Shown here one piece after another: positions 26,780 to 54,473 of a stretch of DNA of 64,000 nt. Source of the stretch: an uncultured Clostridia bacterium (GTDB lineage Bacteria > Bacillota > Clostridia > Christensenellales > UBA1750); assembly GCA_947625765.1 (NCBI GenBank), contig CANQPP010000007.1, positions 1-64,000 of the forward strand. Reading direction: 5' to 3'. Below the pieces are notes generated by a model, which saw nothing but the letters and a program-made list of their open reading frames with translations, was not told the origin of the DNA and searched no databases. A program made the translations under genes and the position numbers. The stretch's first letter is position 1. The number at the start of each line of letters is the position of its first letter.

Positions 26780-28156
26780 CTATTTCTTTTCCGCGTTCTC
26801 CACCGCCTCGCCGAGGGCTTCCTCGAAGGAGGGGTGCGGACGGACGGCGCGGAGGAAGCCACGGGCGGTCAGGTGGTTGGAGACGGCGAGGGCCAGCTCG
26901 CCGACCAGGTCCGTCGCGCGCTCGCACATGAGCAACGCGCCGAGGAGGACGCCCGTCTCGGCGTGCGCCATCACCTTGATAAATCCCCGCTCGCCCTTGG
27001 CGATCTGCGTGCGGCCGTTGCCGCCCATCAGCGCCTTGCCCACGCGCACCGGGATGCCGCGCTCGGCGGCATCCTTCTCACTGAAGCCAACCTCCGCAAT
27101 CTCCGGGGATGTGTACACGCAACGAGGGATAACGGAAAGGTCAGGCGTGGGTTCTCGTCCCGCTAAGATCTGCGCCACGGCCCTGCCCTCGACGCTGGCA
27201 GCGTGGGCCAGCTGCGGGCCGGGGATCAGGTCGCCTATGGCGTAGACGCCCGGGACGCTGGTCTGGAAGCGCCCGTCCACCTGGATGTGCCCGGCGGGCG
27301 TCGTTTCTGACTGCATTGGCGGCGCAAACAGCCCTTCGCTGTTCGGACGGCGGCCCACCGCGCAGAGGATGTACTGTGCGCGGGCGGTCATTTCCTTGTT
27401 GTTCTCGGTGAAGGTGCATTTCAGCGCTTCGCCGTCCCGCTTGACGCTTTGCAGCATGGCGCCGATGTGCAGACCGATCCCGCGCTTCTTGAAGATCATC
27501 CGCAGGTTCTGGGAAATTTCTTTGTCCATCTCCGGCAGGAGCCGCGGCTGTGCCTCGAGGATCGTCACTTTCGTCCCCATCGCGGAGAACGCCTCCGCCA
27601 TCTCCACGCCGATCACCCCGCCGCCGAGAATCACAAGGCTCTCCGGCAATTCTTCCAGCGCGAACAGCCCGTCGCTGTCGAGCACGCCGGGCAGGTCCAT
27701 GCCGGGCAAGGGCAGCGTCTTCGGGCGCGAACCCGTGGCCAGCAGGATATGTTTCGCTTCGAGAACCGTTTCTCCCTCGTCCGTTTCGATGCGGACACGG
27801 CTCTCGGGCAGCACCTGCCCTTTGCCCGCAAGGACCATCACACCTGCCGCGCGCAGCATCGCCGCCACGCCGTCGGCGAGTTTTTGTACCGTCTCCTGTC
27901 GGTAGGCGAGCATCTCGCCGTAATCGAGCCGCACATTCTCCGTGTGGATGCCGAACGCTTCCGCCGGCCGCGTCGTCCGTAAAATCTCGGCCACGTGGAG
28001 CATGGCCTTGGTCGGGATGCAGCCCAGGTGCAGGCAGGTGCCGCCGAGCTTCCCGCTCTCCACGAGCGCCGTCTTGAGGCCGAGCCTTGCGGCCTCAGCC
28101 GCCGCCGTGTAGCCGCCCGGCCCGCCGCCGATCACGACGAGATCATATTTTTCCAT
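26780..28156 (-). CDS. lpdA: Dihydrolipoyl dehydrogenase
   Basis: MEKYDLVVIGGGPGGYTAAAEAARLG, redox-active GGTCLHLGCIPTKAML, GGGVIGVEMAEAFSAMG. Confidence 0.92.
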   Translation of the reverse strand: MEKYDLVVIGGGPGGYTAAAEAARLGLKTALVESGKLGGTCLHLGCIPTKAMLHVAEILRTTRPAEAFGIHTENVRLDYGEMLAYRQETVQKLADGVAAMLRAAGVMVLAGKGQVLPESRVRIETDEGETVLEAKHILLATGSRPKTLPLPGMDLPGVLDSDGLFALEELPESLVILGGGVIGVEMAEAFSAMGTKVTILEAQPRLLPEMDKEISQNLRMIFKKRGIGLHIGAMLQSVKRDGEALKCTFTENNKEMTARAQYILCAVGRRPNSEGLFAPPMQSETTPAGHIQVDGRFQTSVPGVYAIGDLIPGPQLAHAASVEGRAVAQILAGREPTPDLSVIPRCVYTSPEIAEVGFSEKDAAERGIPVRVGKALMGGNGRTQIAKGERGFIKVMAHAETGVLLGALLMCERATDLVGELALAVSNHLTARGFLRAVRPHPSFEEALGEAVENAEKK

Positions 28157-28158
28157 CC

Positions 28159-29133
28159 TTATACCTCCAGCGGCGCGGTTTCCAGCCACGCCGCAAGCTC
28201 TTTTTCTGTGTCGTTCTCTGAAAATGCCGCGCTCAGCGCCGCCTTTTCAAGCGGAACGCCAAGCAGCTTCTTTTGCAAGCGTTCCGGCAGCTCCGGCTCC
28301 ATCGCGTCCGTTTCGATCTGTATATCAGCGATTTTGTCTTGCACTACACGGAAGCACAGCGTGATCTCGCCCCAGGAGAATCGGCGAGAAAGGGTGTGCG
28401 AAAACAAAGGTTTTTCGCCGTAGATCCAGCGCGGATCGGCAAACTTTTCCTGACGGTTCTCCACGTCGTGCAGGTCTTCCTGCGTGAGAATGAGCGGTTC
28501 AATCTCGCCCACAAAGGCACGCGCAAAGGACGTGCGCAGCGCTTGTTTGAGGTTTTCAACCGTGATCTCGGGCTTTACCTCCCGCAGGTTCACGACCCGC
28601 GACCGCACAGACGGAACGCCCTTCCCCTCGAGCTTCGCCGCGCTCGGGCGCAGGTACCGCTCCACCGCCGACCGCTCCACGTCCACCATCACCGTGCCGT
28701 GGTGGCAGCAGAAGTTTCCGCTCCTGAAAAACGCGCTGCCGGAGACTTTCCGCCCGTTTACTAGAATATCGTTTCGTCCAGAAAATCCCGCGTCGATGCC
28801 AAGGGAGCGCAGCGCCTCCAGCACGACCCGCGTCTGCTGTTCCGCGTAATAGTTCTTTTCATGCGCGAAAAAGCTGAAATTGAGGTTTCCAAGGTCATGG
28901 TACACCGCGCCGCCGCCGGAATTGCGCCGGGCGAGGTGCGCGCCGTCCCGCTGGAGCAACTCCAGCGCGCACTCCCGCTCCGCGTTCTGGTTGCGCCCGA
29001 TGACCACCGTTTGGTCGTTCTGCCACAGGTAGAGGATGCGCTCGTCCTCCCCGCAGCGAAAGAGCAGGTGCTCTTCCAAGGCAAGGTTCCAGTAGGGATC
29101 GTGTTGATCCGTCTCAATATAGGAAAGCCTCAT
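28159..29133 (-). CDS. lplA: Lipoate-protein ligase A
   Basis: NLALEEHLL, WQNDQTVVIGRNQNAERE, RRNSGGGAVYHDLGNLNFSF, KVSGSAFFR; 4-nt overlap with gcvH. Confidence 0.92.
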   Translation of the reverse strand: MRLSYIETDQHDPYWNLALEEHLLFRCGEDERILYLWQNDQTVVIGRNQNAERECALELLQRDGAHLARRNSGGGAVYHDLGNLNFSFFAHEKNYYAEQQTRVVLEALRSLGIDAGFSGRNDILVNGRKVSGSAFFRSGNFCCHHGTVMVDVERSAVERYLRPSAAKLEGKGVPSVRSRVVNLREVKPEITVENLKQALRTSFARAFVGEIEPLILTQEDLHDVENRQEKFADPRWIYGEKPLFSHTLSRRFSWGEITLCFRVVQDKIADIQIETDAMEPELPERLQKKLLGVPLEKAALSAAFSENDTEKELAAWLETAPLEV

Positions 29134-29510
29134 GCTTTGAGCGTTTCGAGATACGCCGTGTATTCCTCGGCGGTCAGTAGTTCCGCCGTCTCCGTCACGC
29201 CCTCCACCCGGATAAGCCACGCGCCATAGGGGTCCTCGTTGAGGCGGTCGGGCTCGTCCGCCGCCGTCTCGTTGATCTCCGCGACCGTGCCGCTCACCGG
29301 CGAAGGGATGTCCGACACCACCTTGGTGGATTCCACCTCGCCGAAGGGTTCCCCCGCGGTCACCGCGTCGCCCGCCTCCGGCAGGTTCACGAACACGATC
29401 CCGCCGAGCTGCGACTGGGCGTAGTCCGTGATGCCCACGAGCACCGCGCCGTCCTCCTCGCGCATCCACTGGTGGGTCTTTGTGTATTGTAAGTCTTCCC
29501 GAATCGTCAT
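29130..29510 (-). CDS. gcvH: Glycine cleavage system H protein (lipoyl carrier)
   Basis: YTKTHQWMREEDGAVLVGITDYAQSQLGGIVFVNLPEAGDAV..VESTKVVSDIPSPVSGTV (lipoyl-lysine context). Confidence 0.93.
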   Translation of the reverse strand: MTIREDLQYTKTHQWMREEDGAVLVGITDYAQSQLGGIVFVNLPEAGDAVTAGEPFGEVESTKVVSDIPSPVSGTVAEINETAADEPDRLNEDPYGAWLIRVEGVTETAELLTAEEYTAYLETLKA

Positions 29511-30262
29511 GGTTTTCCCCTTTCTTTTTCCGCGAGCGCCGCGCAGCCGATGGCTGAAAGATACGCAGCGTGTTCCGGCACCGTGACCGGCTTTTCCAGC
29601 ACCGCCTCGGCGTATTTGGCAATCCCCGGTATTTTTGTGAGGCCTCCGGAAAGGTAAATTCTGTCGCAGTCTACCTTGCCGAGCAGCGTTTTGGACTGCG
29701 TCAGTATTTGCACGAGCACCGCCCGGAGGATCTCGTCTTCCGAAATGCCCTCGGCGATCCGCTCCACGATCTCGCTCTGGGCGAACACCGCGCAGGTGGA
29801 CGAAAGCCGCAGATTTGGGAGCTTGCCGTCCGAAAGATCGAGGCTTTCAAACGGGACGCCCAACCTATGCAGCGTGTTCTCTAAGAACATCCCGCAGCCC
29901 GCCGCGCACTTGTCGTTCACGAAAAACGAGAGCAGCTTTCCGTCCCACTGGCGGATGAGCTTCGTGTCCTGCCCGCCGATGTCGAGCACCGTCTCCGCTT
30001 CGGGCGCGACGCGGTGAACGCCCGCCGCAAGGGCGCTGAGTTCGGAGACCGCGCGGCTGCCGCCAACGTTCTTCCTGCCGTAGCCGCAGCTCACCACGGG
30101 AATACCCCCGTATGCTTCGCGGAGGCTTTGCAGCTTCTCCGCAAAATATTCCTTCTGACGGACGGGCGTTTCCTCCGCGCGGAGTGCCTCGACTTTCCCG
30201 GCTGCCCCCAGCACACAGAGCTTCGTGTAGGTGGAGCCGATGTCGATCCCGATGCCGCTCAT
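29507..30262 (-). CDS. 2-hydroxyacyl-CoA dehydratase activator / BadF-BadG-BcrA-BcrD ATPase
   Basis: MSGIGIDIGSTYTKLCVL, VLDIGGQDTKLI, NDKCAAGCGMFLENTL, SSTCAVFAQSEI, YLSGGLTKIPGI. Confidence 0.92.
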   Translation of the reverse strand: MSGIGIDIGSTYTKLCVLGAAGKVEALRAEETPVRQKEYFAEKLQSLREAYGGIPVVSCGYGRKNVGGSRAVSELSALAAGVHRVAPEAETVLDIGGQDTKLIRQWDGKLLSFFVNDKCAAGCGMFLENTLHRLGVPFESLDLSDGKLPNLRLSSTCAVFAQSEIVERIAEGISEDEILRAVLVQILTQSKTLLGKVDCDRIYLSGGLTKIPGIAKYAEAVLEKPVTVPEHAAYLSAIGCAALAEKERGKP

Positions 30263-31398
30263 ACGATCTCCCTCAAGATGTCCAGCTGCGCCTTCGCGCG
30301 CTCGAGGTCGAGATATTCCCGGTCGATCATGTCGATCTCGAGCTCCACCTGTGGCAGGTCGATGTATTTTGCCGAGACGAAATCGCACTTGCAGCTCTTG
30401 TTCCGCAGGGAGATCGCGGCCTTTGCGCCCGAGCGCTCGATGCAGCCCTGCAGCCGCTCGCGTTTCGTCTTCGCCGAGAGGTTCAGAAACGTGTAGTTGT
30501 ACGCGGTGAAAAGCTGCTCGAAGGGGTCGCCGCCGCTGTAATCGAGGCTCCACCAGGTGATGTAATTCGAGCCGCAGATGCGGAAGTCCGGCAGGAGTTC
30601 TTTCAGGTACCGCTGCGGGTGATACCAAAGCGGATAGCCGAGCCAGAAGATGGGAGTGCGCTCCTTATCCGCCTCGGGCGCTTCGACCTGAATGTCGTAC
30701 ATCGCGTCGTACAGAGCGGCGGTCTCCGGCTTGCACCGGTCGGTGATGAGGTAGGAAATGCCGTCAAAAAGCGCGGTCGGTTCGATGCACCGATCCGAAA
30801 GCAGGCCCGCGACGCGGTTCCATGCTGCGACGCTCCTTTGGCTGTTTTGAATGAGTTCCGCGAGGCGGGCTTCGTCCAGCTTGTTCCCGCTGAGCGCTTC
30901 CATCTTCGCGATGAGGTCTTTGTGTTGCGCCGTCACATATGGCAGCGCGCGCCCCTTCTCCACGCTCTCGCCGGGGTAGTCCAGCACGATGAGCGGGACG
31001 TGGTATTCCTCCGCCAGGAGGTTCCACCAGTTCGGAAGCGTGTTGCACTGGTTGTTGGTAGCGATCAGCACGTCGGGCTTCGGTGGCAGGCCCCGCGGGG
31101 CCTTGCCGGTGGCCAGCGCACCGTTGAAGCACCCGGAATACGCGCAGCAGTCGAGGCAGAGGCCGCCTCTTTCGCTCTCCTTGAGCAGCGCCTGCTCCTG
31201 CCCGCTGGCCGCGATGACGGCGGCGTAGCTTTCCGGGTAGATATACTCGATGTCGAGCGCCTCCAGGATCTCCACCGGCGTGAACGCCGTGACCCACGCC
31301 ACCTTTCGGGTCGGCGCTTTTCCCTTTGCGTACTTGGAAAAGTCCTTGTAGTAGTCCCGCATCAGCTTCGCCTGAAGCTGCAAATAGAGCTGTGCCAT
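30259..31398 (-). CDS. 2-hydroxyacyl-CoA dehydratase family subunit (HgdB-like)
   Basis: YIYPESYAAVIAASGQEQALLKESERGGLCLDCCAYSGCFNGAL; PLIVLDYPGES; FRICGSNYITWWSLDYSGGDPFEQL. Confidence 0.85.
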   Translation of the reverse strand: MAQLYLQLQAKLMRDYYKDFSKYAKGKAPTRKVAWVTAFTPVEILEALDIEYIYPESYAAVIAASGQEQALLKESERGGLCLDCCAYSGCFNGALATGKAPRGLPPKPDVLIATNNQCNTLPNWWNLLAEEYHVPLIVLDYPGESVEKGRALPYVTAQHKDLIAKMEALSGNKLDEARLAELIQNSQRSVAAWNRVAGLLSDRCIEPTALFDGISYLITDRCKPETAALYDAMYDIQVEAPEADKERTPIFWLGYPLWYHPQRYLKELLPDFRICGSNYITWWSLDYSGGDPFEQLFTAYNYTFLNLSAKTKRERLQGCIERSGAKAAISLRNKSCKCDFVSAKYIDLPQVELEIDMIDREYLDLERAKAQLDILREIV

Positions 31399-31410: not shown

Positions 31411-32356
31411 TTACAGCAAGTCCGCGAACGTTTCGATGGCGAGCGCGGCGTTCTTCGCGCTGCTGCCCGTCTCCGTCACCCGGAGCACCGGGATCTGGAG
31501 TTCATCGAGCATCCGCTTGTAGGAAGGGAAGAGGTAATCGTAGGGCTCGCAGTACTTCTGCGTGAGGAAGATGACGCCCTGGACTTGTTTTTGCAGAAGC
31601 TCGTCCCGATCTGCTTTAAGGATCTCCGCGAAAGCGTCCTGCGAGGGGGAGGGCAACCCGGCAAGGAGGCTCTTTGCGATATTCTCGTAGATATCGCCCT
31701 CTGGGGACACTTCCGGCGCGAAGATGAGCCGTCTCGACTCGGGCAGACGGTCGCCGACGATGTTCATCCCCGCCGTCTCGATCTGTTGGACGAGGCCGGT
31801 CCCGGCCTGCGTTGAACCCACAAGAAAAACCCTTGGGGACGCAGAAGAGCTGCCCACGGAAATCTCCGTCGGCACTTCCTGCTCCCACAAGGGTTTTTGC
31901 AGAAGGTTGTGTATGGTTTTGAGGTATGCGCTGTAACTCAGTTCCGGGAGAGCTTCGTACAGCGTGCGCAGGGCGCGATTGCGGGCGTTGATCCGCTCAG
32001 CACGCTCCGCGATGCTGGTGATCTTTACACCGTAATGGTTCTCAACAGCAGCCTGGTATGCACGGACGCTTTCCGCGAGAAATGCGATAGCTTCGCGGTC
32101 TTTGCGCGCCGGAACAGGGAGCTGATATAGGAACTTATGGTACCCCCCCCCCGATATAATTTTTTAGTGTTCGGCTGCTGTCGCAGGTGCGGGGGAACAC
32201 CGCGCCGTCGATAGTATCATCTTCCAGCACGCGAGCGATGAACTCTGCAGCGTATTCGCAGTAGTGCGAAATTCTTTGCTTCCCCTCGTATCCGAAGAAC
32301 CGCTCCGTGTCGCAGATCTGTTCCGGGATCAGGGTAGATAGGGATAGAATGTGCAT
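31411..32356 (-). CDS. 2-hydroxyacyl-CoA dehydratase family second subunit; split by a +1 frameshift at a G10 tract (phase OFF as sequenced)
   Basis: N-term ORF 32135-32356 (..VFPRTCDSSRTLKNYIGGG) and downstream frame (YHKFLYQLPVPARKDREAIAFLAESVRAY..31411) join exactly if the tract is 9 G; 945 nt, 314 aa. Confidence 0.82.
32143..32152 (-). repeat. Poly-G10 homopolymer tract (C10 on + strand)
   Basis: GGTAC-C(n)-GATAT; frame check confirms 10 nt. Confidence 0.9.
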
Positions 32357-32374: not shown

Positions 32375-33459
32375 CTATGGTAATTGCGCAAGCTCTTCTT
32401 CGGTCAGATACGGTGTGATGATCTCTTTATACTTGTCGTAAGCCTCGTCCCAGCTCTCGTACCCCCCCCCCCGGTTTTTTCAGGGAAGTCATAGTGGTCG
32501 AGGAGGTATTGGGAGAGAAACTCCGTGACTTTGATTGCGCCATGAAGATTTGTATGCTTCCCATCTTCTCCAACATAATCCTGTGATAAATCTAAGCCAA
32601 TTTCATCAAAATGATCCATCATATCCAAGACAGGATACCCCCTGCTTTCAATATAATCCTTAGCTGTATTATACTGCGCCGTCCTGCTTTCTTCTTCTGT
32701 GAACTGTGGAACAATAACAAAAAGAATATTAACTTTCTCTCTATCGCAATAATTCAGAATATCATTAAGTACTTTAGAGCCATATTCAGCCAAGGGTTCT
32801 TTTTTGTCAACTATCATAAAATTTGAAGTCATATCGTTCTTCCCACTAAGGAAATCATCGAATATCCGCACGCCTTTTAACCCAAGAGTTTCTTCAAAAT
32901 GGAAATCCTTCCAAGTCAAGCCTTTCCACCTAGTATGAAATCGTAGCAGCGGAAAGAAAAACTCCATAATACTGTATGCATCTCTGCCATCTCCAACATT
33001 ATATAGATATTGAACCATATTGATCTTTGTCATTGATAGCGGGAAAAAATCTGCTATGTTATGAACTACACCACTGGTTGCTCCACTCATAACGAGTTGG
33101 TTGACGTTTGCAATAATCAACGCTTGTGGTTGTGTTTTTCTAGCTTCCTCTATTAGAAAAGGGACTGCCGACATTGGTTGTGAAGAGGTCGAGAGTGGAT
33201 AAACCGTTATCCCTGTCTGTTTCCACGCAATGGGCGCTAACCAATACATATAAACATGACTTGCTCCAAGATAAACTGCATCTAAAGTGTTGGGGATTTC
33301 TTTGTAAAACTCATATACCGTCTCGTATTCATACTGGGCATGTTCATTGAACTCGCCTTTGGTGGCTACTAATTTTGATGAACTGTTTAGCAATAGAATA
33401 AATAACACAACGAACACACATACCCTTATATATTTGCTATGCTTACAGAGTAATTTCAT
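32375..33459 (-). CDS. SGNH/DltD-like hydrolase, MBOAT partner 1; C-terminus set by a G11 tract (sequenced frame ends at 32404)
   Basis: AVYLGASHVYMYW, SQPMSAVPFLIEEA, FVIVPQF, HTNLHGAIKVTEFLS. The G9/G12 frame ends at 32375, 18 nt before the next gene. Confidence 0.75.
32462..32472 (-). repeat. Poly-G11 homopolymer tract (C11 on + strand)
   Basis: CGTAC-C(n)-GGTTTTTT; frame check confirms 11 nt. Confidence 0.9.
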
Positions 33460-33478
33460 AGAGCAAATGTATCCTTTC

Positions 33479-35014
33479 TCAGAACCCCCGATAAATAAAG
33501 TCTGCTGGATCATACCCCGGCCCGTACATGCCAAAAATCAAGATTCCGAAGATCAGCGCGTACCAGATCGCCCAGCGGAAGACGAGATTCTGCTTGGCGA
33601 TCTGTTCCCGCAGGCTGCCCTTTTCCTGCAGGATCGAGACGATCAGCAGCACCAGCAGGGCGATCACCATCAGGATGAAGTTTGGCGCATCGAGGCCCAG
33701 CTTGAAGAGCGAGCCATCGAAGAATATCTCCGGGTTGTTCGGAAACAGGCCTGCCTTGATCGTCCGCAGCGTGGCCATGAAGCCATCGATCCTAAAGAAC
33801 ATGTTACCGATGACCGCAAGGCCAAACACGCGCAGCGACTGGAACAGGTGCCAGCTGAAGCAGTTTGTGTTGATCTTGAGCGCGGCGATGATCTTCTTGA
33901 ACACCGGCTCCAGCACCTGCGCCATGGCGATCAGGAACCAGAACCAGATGCCCATGCCGATGATGTATTTCCAAGCTCCGCCATGCCAGAGGCCCATAAA
34001 CAGCCAGACGCACAGCATGCCGAGGATGCTGGGAATTTGTTTGGCGGCTTTCTTGCCCCAATGCGCCTTGATCCACTTCGTCATGCCTTTCCACAGACGG
34101 GAACGCATCACGGGATAGAGGATGTAGTCCTTCAGCCAGGCGCCCAGCGTCATGTGCCAGCGCTGCCAGTATTCCTGCACGCTTCGGGAAAAGAGAGGGC
34201 TGCGGAAGTTCTCCGGCAGGATGATCCCGTAACACTCCGACGCGCCGAGGATGATATCCATGCAGCCGGAGAAGTCCGTGTAGAGTTGGAACAGGAACGA
34301 GATCGCAGCGACCCAGATGTAGAAGCCGTTATAGGTAACCGTATCCGCATAGATGGTGTCCACGATCACGCCAAGCCTCGCCGAGATGACCAGCTTCTTG
34401 AAGATGCCCCACAGCATCCGCTGCATGCCGAAGGCGATCTGCTTGGAGTCGAACTTGTGGCCGGCATAAAGCTGGTCCTTCACCTCATTGTACCGGGTGA
34501 TCGGGCCGGAGGTCAGCTGCGGCCAGTACCCAACGAACAGCGCGGTCTTCACCAGGTTCGTCTGCGCCGGGCAGATGTCCCAATAAACATCCAGCAGGTA
34601 GCCAACGACCGACATCGTATAGAAGCTGATGCCCAGCGGAGCGAGAAGGTTGAGCTGCGGGATACGGGCAGAACTTCCCACAAGAGATGAAGCGAGATTT
34701 ATATTGTTGATAAAGAAGTTGCTGTATTTGAGCGTCGCCAGGATGCCCAGGTTCACGACAAGCCCCAGCACGAGCCACAGCTTCGCCTTTTTGCCGTTCC
34801 CTGTCTCTTTCGCCATTGTGATGCCGTGCGTGCACAGCGTCGTTACGAGCACGGCCGCTACCGCATAGATGATGGTGTAATCCGCTGCGGAAAAGTGAAA
34901 GAACGCCAGGCTGAACACAAACAGCGCGATCCACTGGAAGCGCTTGGGGATGATATAGTACACCCCGAGAGACAAGATGAAAAATAGCAGAAATGGCAAG
35001 GATGTTATAGTCAT
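33479..35014 (-). CDS. MBOAT family O-acyltransferase 1
   Basis: LTSGPITRYNEV, FGMQRMLWGIFKKLVIS, LYTDFSGCMDI, WHMTLGAWLKDYILYPV, LFMGLWHGGAWKYI. Confidence 0.92.
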   Translation of the reverse strand: MTITSLPFLLFFILSLGVYYIIPKRFQWIALFVFSLAFFHFSAADYTIIYAVAAVLVTTLCTHGITMAKETGNGKKAKLWLVLGLVVNLGILATLKYSNFFINNINLASSLVGSSARIPQLNLLAPLGISFYTMSVVGYLLDVYWDICPAQTNLVKTALFVGYWPQLTSGPITRYNEVKDQLYAGHKFDSKQIAFGMQRMLWGIFKKLVISARLGVIVDTIYADTVTYNGFYIWVAAISFLFQLYTDFSGCMDIILGASECYGIILPENFRSPLFSRSVQEYWQRWHMTLGAWLKDYILYPVMRSRLWKGMTKWIKAHWGKKAAKQIPSILGMLCVWLFMGLWHGGAWKYIIGMGIWFWFLIAMAQVLEPVFKKIIAALKINTNCFSWHLFQSLRVFGLAVIGNMFFRIDGFMATLRTIKAGLFPNNPEIFFDGSLFKLGLDAPNFILMVIALLVLLIVSILQEKGSLREQIAKQNLVFRWAIWYALIFGILIFGMYGPGYDPADFIYRGF

Positions 35015-35059: not shown

Positions 35060-36463
35060 TTACACGAGAACGAATTGATCGTTGTCCCAACGGAACACCT
35101 TACTGCATACCTGTTGTTGGTTGTATCGGTCGAGAATGACCACTTTCAGCAGGTCGTTTTCTGCAGTTATTTGTATTGGTTCGTCGCTAAAGTGAACCTC
35201 AAATGTTCCTGCTTTTTCAAAAAGAGGAATGCTTGCCAGACCTTCTTGCCCCGATATCGAAAAGCACTTCAAATAATCATTATTATCATTGATTGATATT
35301 GTTTCATTTTCTACCAATTTTAAAGATGATTCCCCTTCCACGAGATTATGATAATATGCATCAAATTCACCTGTTCCGTCACTCACAATAACTGTATAAT
35401 CTTTTCCATTGATCCATCGCAAAAGACTGTCAACCTTTGTCTCCTGCTTCATATAATAGTTGAGTGCATCTATCCGTTTTGTGGAATATAAATCTTCTGC
35501 AAAGTCTTCTGGATACATCTCCTTAATTTCTGTGCTAAGCTTAAATGACCCATGGTAATTCATGTGTGCTGTATCCCAAAAATACTTTTGTTCGTAGTTG
35601 TTTAGCCAATCGACTGTGATCTCCGGGTATTCTTTTTGCAACGAATCATAATACCTATAAAGCTCGTCTCTATATTTTGCTGAAAATACTGTGTTTTTGG
35701 GGAGCGGAAGCTTTATGATTCGAACTTGTATCTCGTTATCTCGACACAGTTCAATGATTTTTCGATAATATGTATCAAGAAGAGGGGTTACGTAAAAAGA
35801 ATCATAAGAAATTTCGGTATCATCAGAGTATTCATTCCATCCAGAAATATATACTCCCTCCCGCATTTCGATTTCTTTCATTGCTCCAAGGTTATATTCC
35901 TTTCGTTGATTAAACCTTGCATTCATAATCGATGTCATATATCTGTTGGGCAAACCCAAATCAAATTCCGGTATATCCAAAATCTGGTTCATAAATTCAG
36001 CACGGCCTTCATGATAGCATATCGCATCCACAAACATTTGCAATTCTTGTTGAGGTTTATATCTATGCGTATAGACCACTCTCCTCCAGAAAATATCTAT
36101 ATCCCACCGTCTAAAATGATCATCGCTAAAGCTAACATAGCATACCCTGGGTGATCCATTATGCTCTAACCAATCCTTCAGTGTATAATAGTTTTCTAAT
36201 GGCGAAGTTCCCCCCAAGGCCAAATTCAAACAGCTGTCCGAGAGCACCGCTGGCAAATAACTTGCATTTGCGGTGGAATCCCCAAGAACAATGACGTCAT
36301 ACTGTTTATCCTGTGTTGTGTTCGCTTTTTCCTTATTCCAGATATAGTATGGTGCTTCTCCGTCCGCAAAGGCTAACAGGTTGAACCTTGCATACAGACA
36401 CAGAAACAACAGCGGCAGAAGGATGCACGCGCATGTCGAATAGAATCGGATCTTCTTTCCCAT
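35060..36463 (-). CDS. SGNH-like/AlgX-DltD-like protein, MBOAT partner 2
   Basis: YDVIVLGDSTANASYLPAVLSDSCLNLALGGTSPLENYYTLKDWLEH; DTAHMNYHGSFKLSTEI. Confidence 0.75.
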   Translation of the reverse strand: MGKKIRFYSTCACILLPLLFLCLYARFNLLAFADGEAPYYIWNKEKANTTQDKQYDVIVLGDSTANASYLPAVLSDSCLNLALGGTSPLENYYTLKDWLEHNGSPRVCYVSFSDDHFRRWDIDIFWRRVVYTHRYKPQQELQMFVDAICYHEGRAEFMNQILDIPEFDLGLPNRYMTSIMNARFNQRKEYNLGAMKEIEMREGVYISGWNEYSDDTEISYDSFYVTPLLDTYYRKIIELCRDNEIQVRIIKLPLPKNTVFSAKYRDELYRYYDSLQKEYPEITVDWLNNYEQKYFWDTAHMNYHGSFKLSTEIKEMYPEDFAEDLYSTKRIDALNYYMKQETKVDSLLRWINGKDYTVIVSDGTGEFDAYYHNLVEGESSLKLVENETISINDNNDYLKCFSISGQEGLASIPLFEKAGTFEVHFSDEPIQITAENDLLKVVILDRYNQQQVCSKVFRWDNDQFVLV

Positions 36464-36474
36464 ATCTTCCTCCG

Positions 36475-38016
36475 CTAAAACTTCTGGTACATAAAGTCCT
36501 GCTCGCTATAGGTCCCATACATACCAATGGTAAAGACAAGTATCGCGAACATCAGGATGACGACCCACTGAAACACAAGATTCTGCTCGGACAGCCATTT
36601 CCGCACGTTTTTTCCCTTTTCCTGCAGATAGGAGACGGCCGCCAACAGGAACAGGCCAAACAGCATTGCAATAAGCTGCTGAAAATCGAGTCCCAGTTTC
36701 AAAATGGAACCATCCAGCAAGATCCCTGGGTTCCAATGAAAACCAGCCCTGATCGTTCTTAAAGTGGTCATGAACCCGCCTAGCCGGAAAAACATGTTGC
36801 CGATGGTGACCAGAACAAAAACGCGCAAGGATTGGAACAACCGCCAGCTGAAGCATTTGGTGTTGATGTGCAGGCGCGCGATGATCTTCTTGGAAAGCGG
36901 TTCAAATATTTGGGATAGTGCGATCAGTGTCCAGAACCAAAGCCCCATGCCAATGATGAATTTCCATCCTCCGCCGTGCCAGAGGCCCATAAAGAGCCAA
37001 ACGCACAGCATCCCCAGAATGCTCGGTATCTGCTTTGCCGCCCTTTTTCCCCAGTGCGCCTTGATCCACTTCGTCATGCCTTTCCAGACTCTGGAACGCA
37101 GAACGGGATAGAGGATATAGTCCCGCATCCAGCTGCCGAGCGTAATGTGCCAGCGCTGCCAAAATTCCTGTACGGAACGGGAGAAGAAGGGCGTGCGGAA
37201 GTTTTCAGGCAGCGTTACGCCATAGCACTCGGAAGCGCCCAGCACGATGTCCATACAGCCGGAAAAGTCTGTGTAGAGCTGGAACATGAAGAGCGCGGCC
37301 GCCAGCCAGATATAGAAGCCGTTGTACGTAGCAGTGTCTGCGTAGATGGTGTCCACGATCACGCCCAGCCGCGCAGAGATGACCAGCTTTTTGAACACAC
37401 CCCATAGGAGCCTCTGCAGGCCAAAGGTCACGTTTTCGTAATCGAAAGCGCAGCCTTCATACAGTGCTCGTACCCCCCCCCGATTCAAATTATACCGTGT
37501 GATCGGTCCGGAGGTCAGCTGCGGGTAATAGCCCGCAAAAAGCGCAGTTTTGAGGATGCTGGGCTGGGGCTCTGCGATGCCCCAATAGGTGTCGAGTAAA
37601 TAACCCATGACGGAGAACGTATAGAAGCTGATGCCCAGCGGCGCTGCCAGCTGCGGCACGGGAAGCTGCAAAGAAATATGCACCAGGGAAAACACCCGGT
37701 TGGCATTGTTGATAAGGAATCCGCTGTATTTGAGCACAACGAGCATCCCGGCATTGACCGCGATCCCAATGGCCAGCGCCAGCTTTGCTATTTTTCCCTG
37801 TTCTTTTGCCTTGGCCCGCCCGATCCACTTCGCACATAGGGTCGTTACAATTATGCTGGCCAACAAATAAACGATCGTGTAGGGCGTGGAGGATAACATA
37901 AAGAAGAGGATGCTGAAAACCAGCAACGCTATCCAGCGAAACTTTTTGGGAAGGATATAATATACCACAAGCGATACGGCGAAAAAGAAAAAGAATTGAA
38001 ATGAGGTCAGGGACAC
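36475..38016 (-). CDS. MBOAT family O-acyltransferase 2, with G9 tract in frame (phase ON)
   Basis: Close paralogue of 33479-35014; SGPITRYNLNRGGVRALYEG at the tract; WHITLGSWMRDYILYPVL; LFMGLWHGGGWKFI. Confidence 0.92.
   Translation of the reverse strand: MSLTSFQFFFFFAVSLVVYYILPKKFRWIALLVFSILFFMLSSTPYTIVYLLASIIVTTLCAKWIGRAKAKEQGKIAKLALAIGIAVNAGMLVVLKYSGFLINNANRVFSLVHISLQLPVPQLAAPLGISFYTFSVMGYLLDTYWGIAEPQPSILKTALFAGYYPQLTSGPITRYNLNRGGVRALYEGCAFDYENVTFGLQRLLWGVFKKLVISARLGVIVDTIYADTATYNGFYIWLAAALFMFQLYTDFSGCMDIVLGASECYGVTLPENFRTPFFSRSVQEFWQRWHITLGSWMRDYILYPVLRSRVWKGMTKWIKAHWGKRAAKQIPSILGMLCVWLFMGLWHGGGWKFIIGMGLWFWTLIALSQIFEPLSKKIIARLHINTKCFSWRLFQSLRVFVLVTIGNMFFRLGGFMTTLRTIRAGFHWNPGILLDGSILKLGLDFQQLIAMLFGLFLLAAVSYLQEKGKNVRKWLSEQNLVFQWVVILMFAILVFTIGMYGTYSEQDFMYQKF
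37473..37481 (-). repeat. Poly-G9 homopolymer tract (C9 on + strand)
   Basis: CGTAC-C(n)-GATTC; frame check confirms 9 nt. Confidence 0.9.
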
Positions 38017-38040: not shown

Positions 38041-38769
38041 TCAGATCAAGCTGCCCCCGGAAACGAGGAAGTTCTGCCCGGTGACAAAGCCGCTTTCTCC
38101 AAGAAGCAGGTATTCGAGCAGCGGCACGACGTCGTTCACCGACGCGTTGCGGCCGAGCGGGTTCTCCGCGGCGTTTTTCTCCACCATGAGATGCGAAAGG
38201 GAGCCAACGAACTTCGTTTCCATCATGCTGGGCGATACGGCGTTGATCTGGATATTCTTAGGCGCATACTCTACCGCCAGCCCACGCAGGCAGCCGAGAA
38301 GCGCATATTTGGCGGCAAGGTAATCGTTCATAAACGAGGGCGGCGTACCCACCGTCGCGGACGACAGGACCGCCGCGACGCGCCCCTCCCGCCGTTTGGC
38401 CATCTTCGGCAGAAACGTCTGCAGGACGACCACGAAGGAGCGGAGCTGCGTTTGCAGCATCTGTTCATAATTCTCCCAGGATAGGGAAGAAAAGCGCACG
38501 GTCCTCAGCCTTGCAGACGGGCAGTGAAGGATGTGGGTCACCGGCCGGTCGGCCGCCTCGACATCGTGCACGAAACGCTGCGTGCTCTCCATATCCGTAA
38601 AGTCCGCTGAGAAAAGCCGAAGGTTGGGAATATCCTGCTGCAGTTGCTCGAGCTCCTCTTTGGAACTGTGGTAGTGTGCAAATACCGTATCAAATTGGTT
38701 CGCCATTCGCTTGATCGCGGCGATCCCAACGGCGGACGAGCCTCCCAACACCAACAGATCACGTTCCAT
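38041..38769 (-). CDS. SDR family oxidoreductase
   Basis: LVLGGSSAVGIAAIKRM, AVLSSATVG..NDYLAAKYALLGCLRGLAVEYAPKNIQINAVSPS, GQNFLVSGGSLI. Confidence 0.88.
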   Translation of the reverse strand: MERDLLVLGGSSAVGIAAIKRMANQFDTVFAHYHSSKEELEQLQQDIPNLRLFSADFTDMESTQRFVHDVEAADRPVTHILHCPSARLRTVRFSSLSWENYEQMLQTQLRSFVVVLQTFLPKMAKRREGRVAAVLSSATVGTPPSFMNDYLAAKYALLGCLRGLAVEYAPKNIQINAVSPSMMETKFVGSLSHLMVEKNAAENPLGRNASVNDVVPLLEYLLLGESGFVTGQNFLVSGGSLI

Positions 38770-39184
38770 CGTCTCTCACCCCCGCTACGATGCTGCCACG
38801 CGAGACCAGGGTCCCTTCCTGGTTCGTTATCCGCGTCTTGATCCGAACGAATTTCTTTTCTGTGTCGACCTTTTCGACCTTGCCATAGACCCGCAGCGTA
38901 TCGCCTACGAACACGGGCGAGGCGAACAGGGAATCCACCTCGTACAGCAGGCAGCGTTCGCCCGGAAGGTAGACGCCTGCCAGCGTCGAATAAAACGAAG
39001 CCGTCAGCATCCCATAGACCACCCGGGAAGGGTACCCGAAGGACCGGGCATAGTTTTCATCATTGTGCAGGGGATTTACGTCTCCGCTGATCTCAAGAAA
39101 CTTCCGCAGCATTTCTTCCGTCACCTTTGTGGAAAAGCACGCATCCATCCCCACCTGCATCTCCTCGATCCTGTAGCTGTTCAT
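38759..39184 (-). CDS. MaoC-like dehydratase/hydratase
   Basis: VTEEMLRKFLEISGDVNPLHNDENYARSFGYPSRVVYGMLTASFYSTL. Confidence 0.88.
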   Translation of the reverse strand: MNSYRIEEMQVGMDACFSTKVTEEMLRKFLEISGDVNPLHNDENYARSFGYPSRVVYGMLTASFYSTLAGVYLPGERCLLYEVDSLFASPVFVGDTLRVYGKVEKVDTEKKFVRIKTRITNQEGTLVSRGSIVAGVRDDGT

Positions 39185-39581
39185 AGGTCAACAGCTCCAC
39201 AAGGCCGATCTGTGCGGAATACAGGAATAGGACCGTACCCCCCCCCCCGCCTAAAATCGCGGGTGCGGGCGTCGGTTCGTCGATCTTCAGAAATCCGATA
39301 TCTTCCAGCATCTTTGCGTCTCTTTCCATGTCGACCGTCTCATAGCAGATATGGTACGGCGCGTTCTTGTATGTACGGATGAGGTTCGCCACGACGGATT
39401 TCTCCGACTTCGGACTGACGAGCTCTACGGTGTAGCCGTCCTTTTCCCAGAACGAGATGTCCACGTCCCGAATCGGGTCGTAGAGGACCGCTTGTTTTTC
39501 CGTGTACCCAAGCGAGGAGAAGACCTTTTCGGCCTTCTCCGATCGCTTTACCAGGTATCCGATGTGATGGACCTTCATCAT
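39093..39581 (-). CDS. VOC family (glyoxalase/methylmalonyl-CoA epimerase-like) protein with G11 tract in frame (phase ON)
   Basis: MKVHHIGYLVKRSEKAEKVFSSLGY..PYHICYETVDMERDAKML..APAILGGGGGTVLFLYSAQIGLVELL. Confidence 0.82.
   Translation of the reverse strand: MMKVHHIGYLVKRSEKAEKVFSSLGYTEKQAVLYDPIRDVDISFWEKDGYTVELVSPKSEKSVVANLIRTYKNAPYHICYETVDMERDAKMLEDIGFLKIDEPTPAPAILGGGGGTVLFLYSAQIGLVELLTYEQLQDRGDAGGDGCVLFHKGDGRNAAEVS
39238..39248 (-). repeat. Poly-G11 homopolymer tract (C11 on + strand)
   Basis: CGTAC-C(n)-GCCTA; frame check confirms 11 nt. Confidence 0.9.
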
Positions 39582-39820
39582 GCCAAGGTTTCCTGGATGA
39601 GGTCGACCATGGCACCCACGTCCTTGAGGCCCTGCACGGCCTTCATGTCGAACTTGATCCCGAAGTCGTCCTCGACCGCAGAAAGCAGCATGATGTGGGA
39701 AAGGGAGTCCCAGTCCTCGATGTCGGCGGCGGTGGTGGTCTCGGTCAGCTCGATGCTCTCATCGTCGAACACGTCGCGGAAGACCTCGGTCAGCTTTGCA
39801 AAAATTTCGGTTCTGTTCAT
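39578..39820 (-). CDS. Acyl carrier protein
   Basis: 80 aa; DIEDWDSLSHIMLLSAVEDDFGIKF phosphopantetheine site. Confidence 0.93.
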   Translation of the reverse strand: MNRTEIFAKLTEVFRDVFDDESIELTETTTAADIEDWDSLSHIMLLSAVEDDFGIKFDMKAVQGLKDVGAMVDLIQETLA

Positions 39821-39838: not shown

Positions 39839-41620
39839 TTAGTTTTGGATTTGAATGACATGCTGTTTCTTTTCGTATCCGTTCGTGAGATCCAGCTCCC
39901 AGCGGGTATTGCCCTGTTCGTCCTCATCCACCTTCGTAAAGCCCTGCAGAGCGTAAAACTCCTTGACCATCGCGTTCTTCGCGGTGGGGTAGTAGTGCCC
40001 GATGAGTTTCTTGAGGCCGCGCTTTTGGGCTTCCGCCGCCAGCTCGTCCATCATGGCGAACTCCATGTCGCGCTTTAAGACCCGGCAGCTCATCAGCCAC
40101 AGGATGATGTCCAGTGCATCCTCCTTTTCTTCGGCGATCACCACAGACACCACGCCGTTGTCGCCGAAGCAGTCCTCCAGCTTCCCGTACAGCGTCACCG
40201 TCTTGGGGTCGGCTGCCGCCGCCTCGATCTCCTCCTGCGTGTAGCGCTTGGTGGTGAGATTGAACTGGTTTGACTTGTTGGTGAGTTGGGCGATGCGGGA
40301 CATGTAGAGGCTCTCGAAGGACTTGATGGTGGCAGTCATCTTGAGGGACAGGAGGTAGTCCTCGTAGTTTGCGAAGCTGGCCTGCATCTCCGCGCGCTTC
40401 ACGTTCTCCTTGTACATCTCGTTGCGCTTGAGGTCGTCCTTCGAGAGGTTCGTCGCCTCGAAGAACCCGCTGCGGTCGATGACGTCGATATAATGCTCCA
40501 CCTTCCCGATCTCCGGCGCCGGCACGCCCGGCACCTGCTGCCGGATGATCGCCCGCTCCGCTGGATTGTCGTCCACGAACACGAAGCTCTCCGGGAGAAG
40601 CGTCAGCTCCTGAGCCATCTGCGTGAGATTGAGGCTTTTCGGCTCCCAGTTGGCCTTGATGGAGATAAACTCTTCAGGCGGCAGGACGCTGTCCGGGTGG
40701 TTCAGCCCGGCGAGGGCATTCTCCCGCTCGTTCTTCGAGACGACATTCAGCAAGACGCCCAGCTTCTTGTGTGCCTTGAGGTACTGCTGGAACTCGGAAT
40801 AGACCTGCCCCATGCTGGTCTCCGGCCCGATGGCGAGGTTCTCCACGCCGTCGTCTCCGACGATGCCGCCCCAGAGTGTGTTGTCTAAGTCGAGCGCGAA
40901 GGCCTTCTTGTTCTTGCCGAACAGGGATTTGATGATGTTGCTCACGCTGAACGCCAGCCGCGGGATGGCGTCCATGCAGCAGCAGTATTTGTACATGTGC
41001 CAGTAGAACGGATCCGACCACTTTTCGAGGCCGTAGTCCGCCGCGAGGTAGTTGATGTCGTTGATGAAGAAGCCCTCGTGGGTCTGGGCGTACCCGTAGA
41101 ACTCCATGTTCAGCCGGGTGATGAAGTTCACGCGGCCGTGGATGTTCGAGGCGTCCTGATTCCCGAGCAGACGGTAGAACGGATACTCGAAGTTGTTCTG
41201 GATGATGGGGCAGTGGTATGTCTCGCGGAGCTTGTCCCACATGGAGATGAAGTGGGCCATGGTCTGGGCGAGCATGGCGTCGATCTCCTCCGGGGTGTTG
41301 TCCACTTCGGGATATGTATTGATGTTTCGGTTTGAGGTGTGGATGAAGATGACGTCGGGCTTGAGCGCCACGAGTTCGGGGTTGTCGAACATCGCGTCCT
41401 GCCAGTACTGGGCGTATTCCGATTCAAAGAACACCGGCTTGATGCCCTGATCCAACAGGAACAGCTCAAGCATGTCCTTGATGTCATGCGTCGTGGATCC
41501 GCCGAGGATGGCGACGCGCTTTTCCATGAGGTTCGGCGAAGCCAAAAGCTCGCGCTTCAGCGACTTGCGCTTGCGAAGGATGAGCTGGTTGTCAAAGGGG
41601 TATTGTAATGTGGGGTGCAT
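39839..41620 (-). CDS. FkbH-like HAD-IIIC family protein
   Basis: KAFALDLDNTLWGGIVGDDG, FVFVDDNPAERAIIRQQVPGV, TNKSNQFNLTTKRYTQEEI, C-terminal GNAT-like region. Confidence 0.92.
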   Translation of the reverse strand: MHPTLQYPFDNQLILRKRKSLKRELLASPNLMEKRVAILGGSTTHDIKDMLELFLLDQGIKPVFFESEYAQYWQDAMFDNPELVALKPDVIFIHTSNRNINTYPEVDNTPEEIDAMLAQTMAHFISMWDKLRETYHCPIIQNNFEYPFYRLLGNQDASNIHGRVNFITRLNMEFYGYAQTHEGFFINDINYLAADYGLEKWSDPFYWHMYKYCCCMDAIPRLAFSVSNIIKSLFGKNKKAFALDLDNTLWGGIVGDDGVENLAIGPETSMGQVYSEFQQYLKAHKKLGVLLNVVSKNERENALAGLNHPDSVLPPEEFISIKANWEPKSLNLTQMAQELTLLPESFVFVDDNPAERAIIRQQVPGVPAPEIGKVEHYIDVIDRSGFFEATNLSKDDLKRNEMYKENVKRAEMQASFANYEDYLLSLKMTATIKSFESLYMSRIAQLTNKSNQFNLTTKRYTQEEIEAAAADPKTVTLYGKLEDCFGDNGVVSVVIAEEKEDALDIILWLMSCRVLKRDMEFAMMDELAAEAQKRGLKKLIGHYYPTAKNAMVKEFYALQGFTKVDEDEQGNTRWELDLTNGYEKKQHVIQIQN

Positions 41621-46531: not shown

Positions 46532-48176
46532 TTTGGGTCCTCCTTTCTTTAATGCCTTCTTGTATTTTGTAACATAAAAATGCTGCGAATCTGAAGATGA
46601 TAAAATTACCAAAAAGCCATAGGTTATAGTAGTACATGAAAATCAACGCAGGCGCTGTCAAAAACGTTAGAACCATCCGCACTTCCATAACTAAAGCAAC
46701 AAATAGATACTTAGAACGACTAATTGCGAGGTACAATGTGAACGCAATGATCGCTGCTGTTTGAGCGTAATAATTGAATGTCCAACGAGTAAGGTTATAC
46801 CCATCCCCTTCCGCGTTAAGGATCTCTCCAACTTTGATCCGAAGCGTGTTACTTAGTGGACGATTCAAATGATAACTATGAGAAAATACTTGCAAGGACG
46901 GTCTCTCGGAAGTATAGAGCCAACCTATAAAACCAGCGCTTTCCTCTTTCCAGCTATCGAGAAAGGTACTTATTCTCTCGCTCATATATATCATCGGATA
47001 TCGAAGCACCAGCTTAACATAAGCCAACTTAAAACCATTATAGTCTTCATCCGAGAAATCATTTTGAATCAGTTGGGACCGATCATTCCAATAAAGTTGA
47101 ATTCCGTCGGTGCCATTTTCATATCCATTCATTATCGTGTCTATATTGATAACCTTATCTATTTCAGTCAGGATTTCTGTCTGCTCATCCTCAGCAGCCT
47201 GTTGGATCAGCGGGGAGATCGGACGTAATACTCCGGTGAGATCATAGTCTTTATTAGGGCTCAACCCATACCGTTGAGGCAAATAGAGGGTGCCGGTCAA
47301 AACAATACAGGAAATCAGTACCCCCCCCCGGAGCATTTTTTTCGACTTAACAGGATAAATTACAAAGAGCAGAGCAGGAACCAAGAAGCAATATAGAATA
47401 CCTTCTGTTCTCCAGTTGGCAAGAATTGCTGTCAAAACAACAAGAGTCATGAGGCGTTTGGGACGCTCCCATATATCTGCGCAATCAATAACTTTAGGTT
47501 CTAGAATTAGTACAACAAGAAGAACCTCCAGCATGCAATACAAGGATAGTCTTAGTGGCCACATATTATGGTCGAAAGTCGGTATAAAGAAGAAAGGGAT
47601 AAGCAGGAGATACCTCCATTTTGTCTGATTCCATATACGCAGTCTTGCTACTACATATACGCAGTATGCAAATATGATCGATATGATCGTGAATTGGACA
47701 AATACTATCCCGGCCGGAAAAGGTGCTACAAATAAAGCAAAGATATAAAAAACGATCGTCAAGTAGTGTTGCCAATAATTCAATTGCCCGTTTGCCATAA
47801 AAGCATTAAAGACATTGACATCATCCCATCTCCAGGCGCCAGGATATATCAAAATCAGAATAATACCGTTTAAAATTTCATAAACAAGAAATGCTGCTAT
47901 TGCCATCTGTACTGGCTTTTCATTTCTCTTTGTCCAGAGCTCTTGTATATAATATAGAGCACAAAAACAAATCGGGATATAAAGTGTCCGCAATTCAGTA
48001 ATCGTCTCCGATTCTGTCTGAAAAGCATACATCTTCGTTGCCAGAGACCATATATACAAAAACAAAGTTCCTAATAAAGGAAACACATAGCGCTTATATG
48101 ACAAGTATTGTTTCTGGTCCAAGCAAATCACCTCCCTGTCCTGATTATCATGCATTATTAAGCAGACAGAAAACAT
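46524..48176 (-). CDS. Multi-pass membrane protein (DUF6020-like), with G9 tract in frame (phase ON)
   Basis: About 12 hydrophobic segments; KKMLRGGVLISCIVL at the tract. Confidence 0.65.
   Translation of the reverse strand: MFSVCLIMHDNQDREVICLDQKQYLSYKRYVFPLLGTLFLYIWSLATKMYAFQTESETITELRTLYIPICFCALYYIQELWTKRNEKPVQMAIAAFLVYEILNGIILILIYPGAWRWDDVNVFNAFMANGQLNYWQHYLTIVFYIFALFVAPFPAGIVFVQFTIISIIFAYCVYVVARLRIWNQTKWRYLLLIPFFFIPTFDHNMWPLRLSLYCMLEVLLVVLILEPKVIDCADIWERPKRLMTLVVLTAILANWRTEGILYCFLVPALLFVIYPVKSKKMLRGGVLISCIVLTGTLYLPQRYGLSPNKDYDLTGVLRPISPLIQQAAEDEQTEILTEIDKVINIDTIMNGYENGTDGIQLYWNDRSQLIQNDFSDEDYNGFKLAYVKLVLRYPMIYMSERISTFLDSWKEESAGFIGWLYTSERPSLQVFSHSYHLNRPLSNTLRIKVGEILNAEGDGYNLTRWTFNYYAQTAAIIAFTLYLAISRSKYLFVALVMEVRMVLTFLTAPALIFMYYYNLWLFGNFIIFRFAAFLCYKIQEGIKERRTQNE
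47321..47329 (-). repeat. Poly-G9 homopolymer tract (C9 on + strand)
   Basis: AGTAC-C(n)-GGAGC; frame check confirms 9 nt. Confidence 0.9.
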
Positions 48177-53617: not shown

Positions 53618-54473
53618 TTATCCATGCAACGTAATTGTTCCGCTGCCCCCTGTTATATAAAATGTATCTCCAACAATCATATTTCCCAAATCGCTGACCA
53701 TAAAGGTTGCTAGCGCAGCGATTTCCGATGGCATTGCATACCGTTTGGCAGGGCAGACATCATTATAAATAATGTCACCTTGATTTTTACCAAGCATAGG
53801 TGTTGCCGTGGGCCCTGGAGCAATAGCATTGACGATGATATCATAAGGGAGCAACCTATCTGCCATTCCCAGCGTCAGACCACGCACTGCCCATTTAGAC
53901 ATTTGATACGGGGTCCACGCTGGGCGTAGGGCAGAGGAAGAAGTCACATTAAGGATATGCCCATGTACTCGGTTTTCAATCATATTCTTCGCCGCTGCCT
54001 GAGACATGAAAAAAGTGCCTTTTGCATTGATATTCATGATATTGTCATACTCTTGTTCCGACATATCTAAAAAATCGTTTTGGGACAATATCCCGGCAGA
54101 ATTGACCAGAATATCAATATGTTCTTCTGGGAAAAGGGCTTCGGCAGCTTTCACTTTCTCTGGCAAGGAGCAAACATCTAAAACATCAATAACAATTGAT
54201 GAGACGTTTCTACACCCCCCCCCCCCCAAATTTTTCGAGGCATTTCTCAAGTTTTTCCTCGGATGTCCCTGCAATGATTACCTTCGCGCCACTTTTCAAA
54301 AAGCTATCCGCTATTGCCATGCCAATTCCTCCACTTCCGCCTGTAATTAGCGCAACTTTTCCAGTTAGCAATTCAGTCGTGTTGATTGGGGTTGGAATAG
54401 GTATTTGCTTTTCTGTTTTCAAGAGCATAACAGCAGATTTAACGAGATGTTTGAGTTTATTCATAATCTTCAT
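53618..54473 (-). CDS. SDR family oxidoreductase, split by a +1 frameshift at a G13 tract (phase OFF as sequenced)
   Basis: N-term ORF 54210-54473 (KVALITGGSGGIGMAIADSFLKSGAKVIIAGTSEEKLEKCLEKFGGGG) and downstream frame (CRNVSSIVIDVLDVCSLPEKV..53618) join exactly at 12 G; 855 nt, 284 aa. Confidence 0.85.
54215..54227 (-). repeat. Poly-G13 homopolymer tract (C13 on + strand)
   Basis: TACA-C(n)-AAATTT; length follows from the two flanking ORF frames. Confidence 0.88.

Follow-up and report, generated by a model that had tools for sequence, protein, structure and literature searches.

The 64,000-nucleotide stretch of an uncultured Clostridia bacterium that we analysed (hereafter the window) contains a row of genes running from fkbH (41620) to lpd (26780) in the order fkbH, acp, glyoxalase-like, maoC, sdr, MBOAT B, SGNH-like, MBOAT A, SGNH-like, hgdA, hgdB, activase, gcvH, lplA and lpd, all on the same strand and closely spaced or overlapping (Table 1). 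The stop codon of hgdA and the start of hgdB are 13 nt apart, so that a closed hgdA frame may have a polar effect that lowers the genes behind it. Scanning the operon for promoters and terminators yielded little over chance. No close inverted repeats flank the hgdA-like gene, and an invertible element was rejected on these grounds.

Table 1. Coordinates of genes and long G runs in the window
Feature	Position	Strand	Remarks	Evidence
Dihydrolipoyl dehydrogenase (lpd)	26780..28189	-		TIGR01350 2.1e-143
Lipoate-protein ligase LplA	28159..29100	-		TIGR00545 3.4e-101
GcvH-type lipoyl carrier protein	29130..29510	-	Sole GcvH of genome	ESTK lipoyl-lysine motif
ATP-dependent activase (BcrAD_BadFG)	29507..30262	-		NDKCAAGC and SSTC cysteine motifs
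hgdB-like gene (HGD-D, HadB/alpha-like)	30259..31398	-		PF06050 2e-34; 3o3m_A 8.9e-32, three cysteines aligned
hgdA-like gene (HGD-D, HadC/BzdN-like beta-type subunit)	31411..32356	-	ATG 32356; full-length stop 31411; out-of-phase stop 32135	PF06050; 10 orthologous ORFs; fold match HadC/BzdN
G10 run in hgdA-like gene	32143..32152	-	Frame closed as assembled	
SGNH/DltD-like gene	32375..33480	-	5' end 33480 approximate; tail switches at G11, ends 32404; orthologous tail ends 32375	Weak DltD match, E 0.012
G11 run near 3' end of SGNH-like gene	32462..32472	-	Same site in L046 is an in-frame G7	
MBOAT O-acyltransferase A	33479..35014	-		PF03062 1.8e-11
Second exported SGNH-like partner	35060..36463	-	No Pfam match	Position; 32% similarity to MBOAT-adjacent gene in L049
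MBOAT O-acyltransferase B	36475..38016	-	With in-frame G9	PF03062 4.4e-11
G9 run in MBOAT B	37473..37481	-	In frame	
Short-chain dehydrogenase/reductase (sdr)	38041..38769	-		
MaoC-like dehydratase	38759..39184	-		
Glyoxalase_4 (methylmalonyl-CoA epimerase-like) protein	39093..39581	-		
G11 run in glyoxalase-like gene	39238..39248	-	In frame	
Acyl carrier protein (acp)	39578..39820	-		DSL serine present
FkbH-type glyceryl transferase/phosphatase	39839..41620	-		TIGR01686 2.4e-80
G9 run in uncharacterised 550-aa gene (46524-48176)	47321..47329	-	In frame	
G13 run in short-chain dehydrogenase gene (53618-54473)	54215..54227	-	Out of frame	

The HGD-D subunits, their activase and the lipoyl proteins

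Both HGD-D subunits scored well above the PF06050 gathering score of 28.4 (75.7 and 120.1 bits), and the post-run part of the hgdA-like gene matched the family with an E-value of 6.6e-21. By sequence, HgdB is nearest to HadB and HgdA to HadC of 2-hydroxyisocaproyl-CoA dehydratase, and the model of the HgdA orthologue from the related locus L049 (mean pLDDT 85.5) matched BzdN, HadC and DCCP with TM values of about 0.8 and Foldseek E-values of about 1e-15 to 1e-14. HgdA orthologues share three invariant cysteines, two of which align with cysteines of HadC, and HgdB retains the three cysteines aligned with HadB. The activase exceeded the TIGR00241 cut-off of 125.4 (171.1 bits) and has both the CAAGC and the STC motif. 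The set therefore resembles HadBC and its activator in having two HGD-D subunits, an ATP-dependent activase, conserved cluster cysteines and the same fold. Unlike HadBC, it is linked to a lipoyl carrier system and to FkbH and ACP, has extra conserved cysteines in the B subunit, and falls far short of the NCBIfam equivalog cut-offs (43.1 of 700 bits for L049 HgdA against HadC, 132.7 of 750 for HgdB against HadB). Identity with 2-hydroxyisocaproyl-CoA dehydratase was rejected on these scores, which make "dehydratase-like" the right description and "hydroxyisocaproyl-CoA dehydratase" the wrong one. DCCP reductases and class I benzoyl-CoA reductases likewise share the subunit fold and activase family, but HgdA reached 42 of 350 bits on the DCCP model and the window encodes two distinct subunits. 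A CoA substrate is no more likely than one bound to ACP or to the lipoyl protein.

In addition to the three HadB-like cysteines, HgdB of the window (30259-31398) and of loci L126-L128 has conserved cysteines in CC-x-YS and SCKC motifs, and these suggest another or larger cluster.

The carrier protein scored 126.1 against the TIGR00527 cut-off of 115.85, and the ES-x-K lipoyl-lysine motif was present in 13 of 13 copies. GcvH, LplA and dihydrolipoyl dehydrogenase are common to the operon and the glycine cleavage system; in contrast to that system, the only GcvH of the window's genome sits in an HGD operon and no glycine decarboxylase P-protein (PF02347) was found in this genome (G000), nor in two other core-bearing genomes (G525 and G580), while a fourth (G961) gave 17.6 bits, under the cut-off. 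A glycine cleavage locus was thus rejected. Since four core-bearing genomes lack glycine decarboxylase, the H-protein of the operon most likely does not serve glycine cleavage and has another job; it may shuttle electrons to or from the Fe-S enzyme, or carry acyl groups.

Relatives of the six-gene core and their surroundings

A scan of genome contigs yielded 12 relatives, mostly in records titled as rabbit-gut MAGs, and the host bacterium is probably an animal-gut inhabitant. Most loci combine hgdA-hgdB-activase with gcvH, usually together with lplA and lpd, giving a six-gene core of two HGD-D subunits, activase, lipoyl H-protein, lipoate ligase and dihydrolipoyl dehydrogenase that is often accompanied by FkbH, ACP and MBOAT genes. 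fkbH and acp lie near the core in L049, L050, L051, L053, L055, L056 and L128, MBOAT genes in L049, L050 and L055, and the L128 core is situated within a polysaccharide locus. In L127 (6056-11364) the core is found beside NAD synthase, pyrophosphatase and PNPase genes, with no FkbH, ACP or MBOAT, and in L126 it is accompanied by an ABC transporter gene and by neither FkbH nor MBOAT. These two settings indicate that the enzyme is not surface-specific by nature, and the core seems to be a self-standing enzyme system that was recruited to surface loci.

The module was not found in the 396 other genomes of the order in which it was sought, and the order therefore supplied no relatives with alternative run lengths. 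Counting the window's genome each time, the core occurred in one of the 397 genomes sampled from the order, three of the 392 from the class and two of the 399 from the phylum, a rarity consistent with horizontal spread. One record titled Gastranaerophilales (L052) holds a Clostridia-like module with an out-of-frame activase, reflecting either horizontal transfer or a binning error.

We assign the window's module a surface role from its company, namely FkbH, ACP, two MBOAT/SGNH pairs, glycosyltransferases and a flippase. A different explanation would place the module in energy or amino-acid metabolism and make its position in a polysaccharide locus incidental, as the housekeeping neighbourhood of L127, the lack of FkbH in L126 and the amino-acid fermentation carried out by HadBC relatives might suggest. 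This is unlikely given that FkbH and ACP accompany the core in seven loci, with MBOAT in three of them, and that the poly-G runs strike MBOAT, SGNH and dehydratase genes of a single continuous gene row in the window. The original prediction had reasoned that a metabolic enzyme is an unusual target for phase variation and had taken this to suggest that the module acts on the surface. The locus is indeed a surface-polysaccharide locus, but surface action is something we infer, and the L127 and L126 settings count against deriving it from the enzyme.

The G10 run and other long G runs

On the minus strand, the tract of the hgdA-like gene reads TTATATC-G10-TACCATAAGTTCC, with TACCATAAG directly after the ten Gs (32152-32143); its length is that of the assembled consensus in a draft assembly of 2.54 Mb and 99 contigs. 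The frame opened by the ATG at 32356 has 68 codons before the tract and then closes with GGGVP and a stop at 32135, giving 73 residues that end in NYIGGGVP, while the post-tract frame continues for 243 codons without a stop to the TAA ending at 31411. A G9 run would join the two frames (68+3+243 = 314 codons). When we re-read the sequence and both frames, the original prediction proved correct in its coordinates, peptides and arithmetic, including the 314-codon ORF after removal of one G, and the frames together with the PF06050 match bear out its claim of an HGD-D (2-hydroxyacyl-CoA dehydratase-like) subunit that is out of phase as assembled. Its choice of G9 as the restoring length fits but is not unique, as any multiple of three would be in frame, and in the L047 orthologue, where the flank differs, a G7 keeps the frame open. 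Frame analysis, set beside the full-length orthologues, shows that a change in run length would toggle between full-length and truncated product. In the L049 HgdA model, the tract position maps to a loop, likely to tolerate extra glycines, that connects helix 60-67 with strand 75-77.

Overlapping G8 matches numbered 21 in the window compared to 3.3 +/- 2.3 in shuffles, none of the 100 shuffles reaching 21. The whole genome of 2.54 Mb has 23 runs of at least nine G, six of them lying in a 22-kb part of the window's surface-polysaccharide locus (Poisson P ~7e-8, for a cluster picked post hoc). All six have G on the coding strand; the hgdA-like G10 and the short-chain dehydrogenase G13 are out of frame, the SGNH-like G11 exchanges the final 28 residues for another tail, and the other three are in frame. 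Run lengths were bimodally distributed in 175 kb of the genome (190 G5, 93 G6, no G7, one G8 and 22 of at least nine), a sample consisting of the window and L031-L044 that was selected so as to contain every long run. By both shuffles and genome counts, long homopolymers thus occur in coding sequence beyond chance, which is one of the marks of a poly-G phase-variable locus. Further runs in the genome lie in genes for an acyltransferase-3, an MmeI-type restriction-modification protein, a C5 methylase and a capsule-kinase-like AAA protein, with one near a UDP-glucose dehydrogenase gene, and these are typical contingency genes. The genome encodes the mismatch repair protein MutS1, so extreme slippage rates are not to be assumed.

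Three of these further runs were located within their genes. A G10 (L040, 1593-1602) divides the MmeI-type gene between its methylase and target-recognition domains, a G9 (L034, 4081-4089) divides the acyltransferase-3 gene, both out of frame as assembled, and the C5 cytosine methylase gene carries an internal G9 in frame (L031, 4144-4152).

The tract site was spanned by the hgdA orthologues of 10 of the 12 relatives, that of L048 starting past the site and that of L057 being a distant fragment. All 10 are uninterrupted single frames, and two natively separate ORFs, an alternative raised along with the original prediction, were rejected on this evidence. At the tract position L047 reads ATC-G7-TAGATAAG, in frame, and the remaining orthologues have ordinary sequence and no run (e.g. 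CTCGGAAGCGCGGATAAA). In L046 the SGNH-like gene reads TC-G7-TAC, in frame, and its product has the tail that the window's G11 displaces. The activase gene contains an in-frame G9 in L051, an out-of-frame G8 at the same site in L052 and ordinary sequence without a run in L049, L050 and L053; in L049 and L050 a G9, within no long frame, additionally precedes fkbH by about 100 nt. Run lengths at the same site consequently differ between relatives (hgdA 7/10, SGNH 7/11, activase 9/8), the differences being between species and not within one strain. Across the loci compared, the sites at which one operon gathers G runs vary from lineage to lineage, a pattern explained neither by an assembly error in one place nor by the decay of one gene.

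An assembly or consensus error, in which nearly every cell really has G9 and the gene is permanently on, nevertheless has to be weighed, because homopolymers are error-prone, the assembly is a draft of 99 contigs and contig C86 terminates within a G15 run. We judge such an error improbable, since it would leave the existence and clustering of the long runs unexplained, and since orthologous genes in other assemblies carry runs of other lengths, one of them out of frame. A one-base error would alter the reported phase rather than the nature of the site: the gene would be in frame and the run would still be there.

Long homopolymers can cause polymerase slippage, and it is conceivable that transcriptional slippage or programmed frameshifting yields some full-length protein from G10, the site tuning dose without acting as a switch. 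We consider this more doubtful still, as the relatives' run lengths differ (G7, G10), with no fixed length, and other genes have runs both in and out of frame; the differing lengths together with the runs in other genes fit variation at the DNA level.

Selection on the gene was assessed from the post-tract part of hgdA, where dN/dS was 0.106-0.124 for window-orthologue pairs compared to 0.134-0.161 for intact pairs, and longer alignments gave 0.124-0.128. By these ratios the out-of-phase copy has undergone no relaxation and purifying selection persists, which argues that hgdA is not an old pseudogene. An ancient pseudogene was rejected on this basis, and a gene permanently broken by the assembled frameshift and now decaying is very improbable, with 243 codons open past the run, a dN/dS (0.11-0.12) no higher than that of intact copies, and hgdB and the activase gene intact.

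We additionally examined the bases adjoining the runs. The long runs of the genome (n=23) are followed by T in 20, TA in 16 and TAC in 7 cases, whereas TA follows runs of three to five in 3-4%, and is thus far rarer there. G9TA occurs 33 times across the family compared to 2 for the reversed control. The base before the long runs (window 32143-54227 and L031-L044) is mostly C. A protein-level cause of the TAC after most window runs was rejected because TAC occurs in three codon registers, so that neither promoters nor codons obviously account for it at the coding runs. In Campylobacter jejuni, flanks have been reported to be without influence on slippage (PMC4965091). Many intergenic runs adjoin a -10 box (TTGACA...G-run...TATAAT-like). 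A G run in a promoter spacer is a classic promoter-spacer switch. Many genomes of the order have G9 immediately 5' of a TATAAT-like sequence, some with TTGACA upstream (e.g. L073, L109, L121), and these sites are candidates for large-scale promoter-spacer phase switching among uncultured bacteria. G6 runs (93 in the 175 kb of window and L031-L044) are followed by C in 86% of cases, unlike longer or shorter runs, perhaps because of a repeated element.

A proposed switch and its place among known systems

Slipped-strand phase variation is probably the best reading of the G10 site, with a lipoyl-coupled Fe-S enzyme feeding surface-glycan decoration. Its observed basis consists of the run, the frames, the integrity of the orthologues, selection, the conserved neighbours, the fold family and the absence of P-protein; these data support a switch, and from them we infer that switching takes place, what the substrate and product are, and how the surface is affected. 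The G10 run would be a simple-sequence contingency site at which replication slippage gains or loses Gs, lengths that are multiples of three giving a complete HgdA-like subunit whose surface loop gains a few glycines and other lengths ending HgdA translation early. HgdA, HgdB and the activase would form an ATP-activated [4Fe-4S] dehydratase or reductase, partnered by the dedicated lipoyl H-protein, its ligase and dihydrolipoyl dehydrogenase.

FkbH proteins transfer glyceryl from 1,3-bisphosphoglycerate to ACP, and the FkbH and ACP of the operon may supply glyceryl-ACP, which as a 2-hydroxyacyl thioester belongs to the substrate class dehydrated by HGD enzymes. Activase-charged HgdAB, aided by the lipoyl protein, could then dehydrate or reductively dehydroxylate glyceryl-ACP, the SDR, MaoC and glyoxalase-like proteins would join it in remodelling the thioester, and the MBOAT/SGNH pairs would move the product onto the surface polysaccharide. 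In the fraction of cells with hgdA out of phase, the modification or one version of it would be lost. The module, we believe, probably produces an acyl group destined for a surface glycan. More tentatively, and as a possibility somewhat short of probable, we propose that HgdA, HgdB, activase, GcvH, LplA and Lpd constitute an undescribed lipoyl-protein-coupled Fe-S dehydratase/reductase, that with FkbH and ACP it makes an unusual short acyl group from glyceryl-ACP for surface glycans, and that gut bacteria toggle it through poly-G runs located independently in one or another of the operon's genes.

Poly-G contingency loci and C-terminal switching are already known (PMC4965091, PMC2823697). C. 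jejuni NCTC11168 has 29 loci with G runs of 7 or more (PMC4965091), and the capsule and lipooligosaccharide loci of C. jejuni share with the window long coding G runs, many of them in surface-glycan genes, and frame switching (PMC4965091, PMC5808241, PMC8437040). PCR has been reported to cause overestimation by 20-35-fold (PMC4965091). In contrast to C. jejuni, the window's host is uncultured, Clostridia-related and has MutS1, the target is an Fe-S HGD-D subunit, and the switch is predicted from sequence. Helicobacter canadensis shows C-terminal phase variation with length variation seen in reads, a homopolymer near the 3' end exchanging C-terminal residues as the SGNH-like G11 does (PMC2823697), but the gene family differs from that of the SGNH-like gene and the window's tail swap is predicted from the assembled sequence. 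Among open-licence papers we found no report of a poly-G switch on an HGD-D enzyme and no paper on HGD-D with a dedicated GcvH, the latter not being proof of absence.

Taken together, the proposed poly-G switch is of a known kind and the enzyme set appears to be undescribed. Poly-G switches are familiar on glycosyltransferases, restriction enzymes and adhesins; that of the window would act on an apparent ATP-consuming iron-sulfur enzyme making a building block. In addition, the recurrence of runs in different genes of one operon points to a surface feature that gut bacteria must gain and lose fast, plausibly since phages or antibodies recognise it, and the conserved six-gene core names definite proteins with which a new use of the lipoyl H-protein can be tested.
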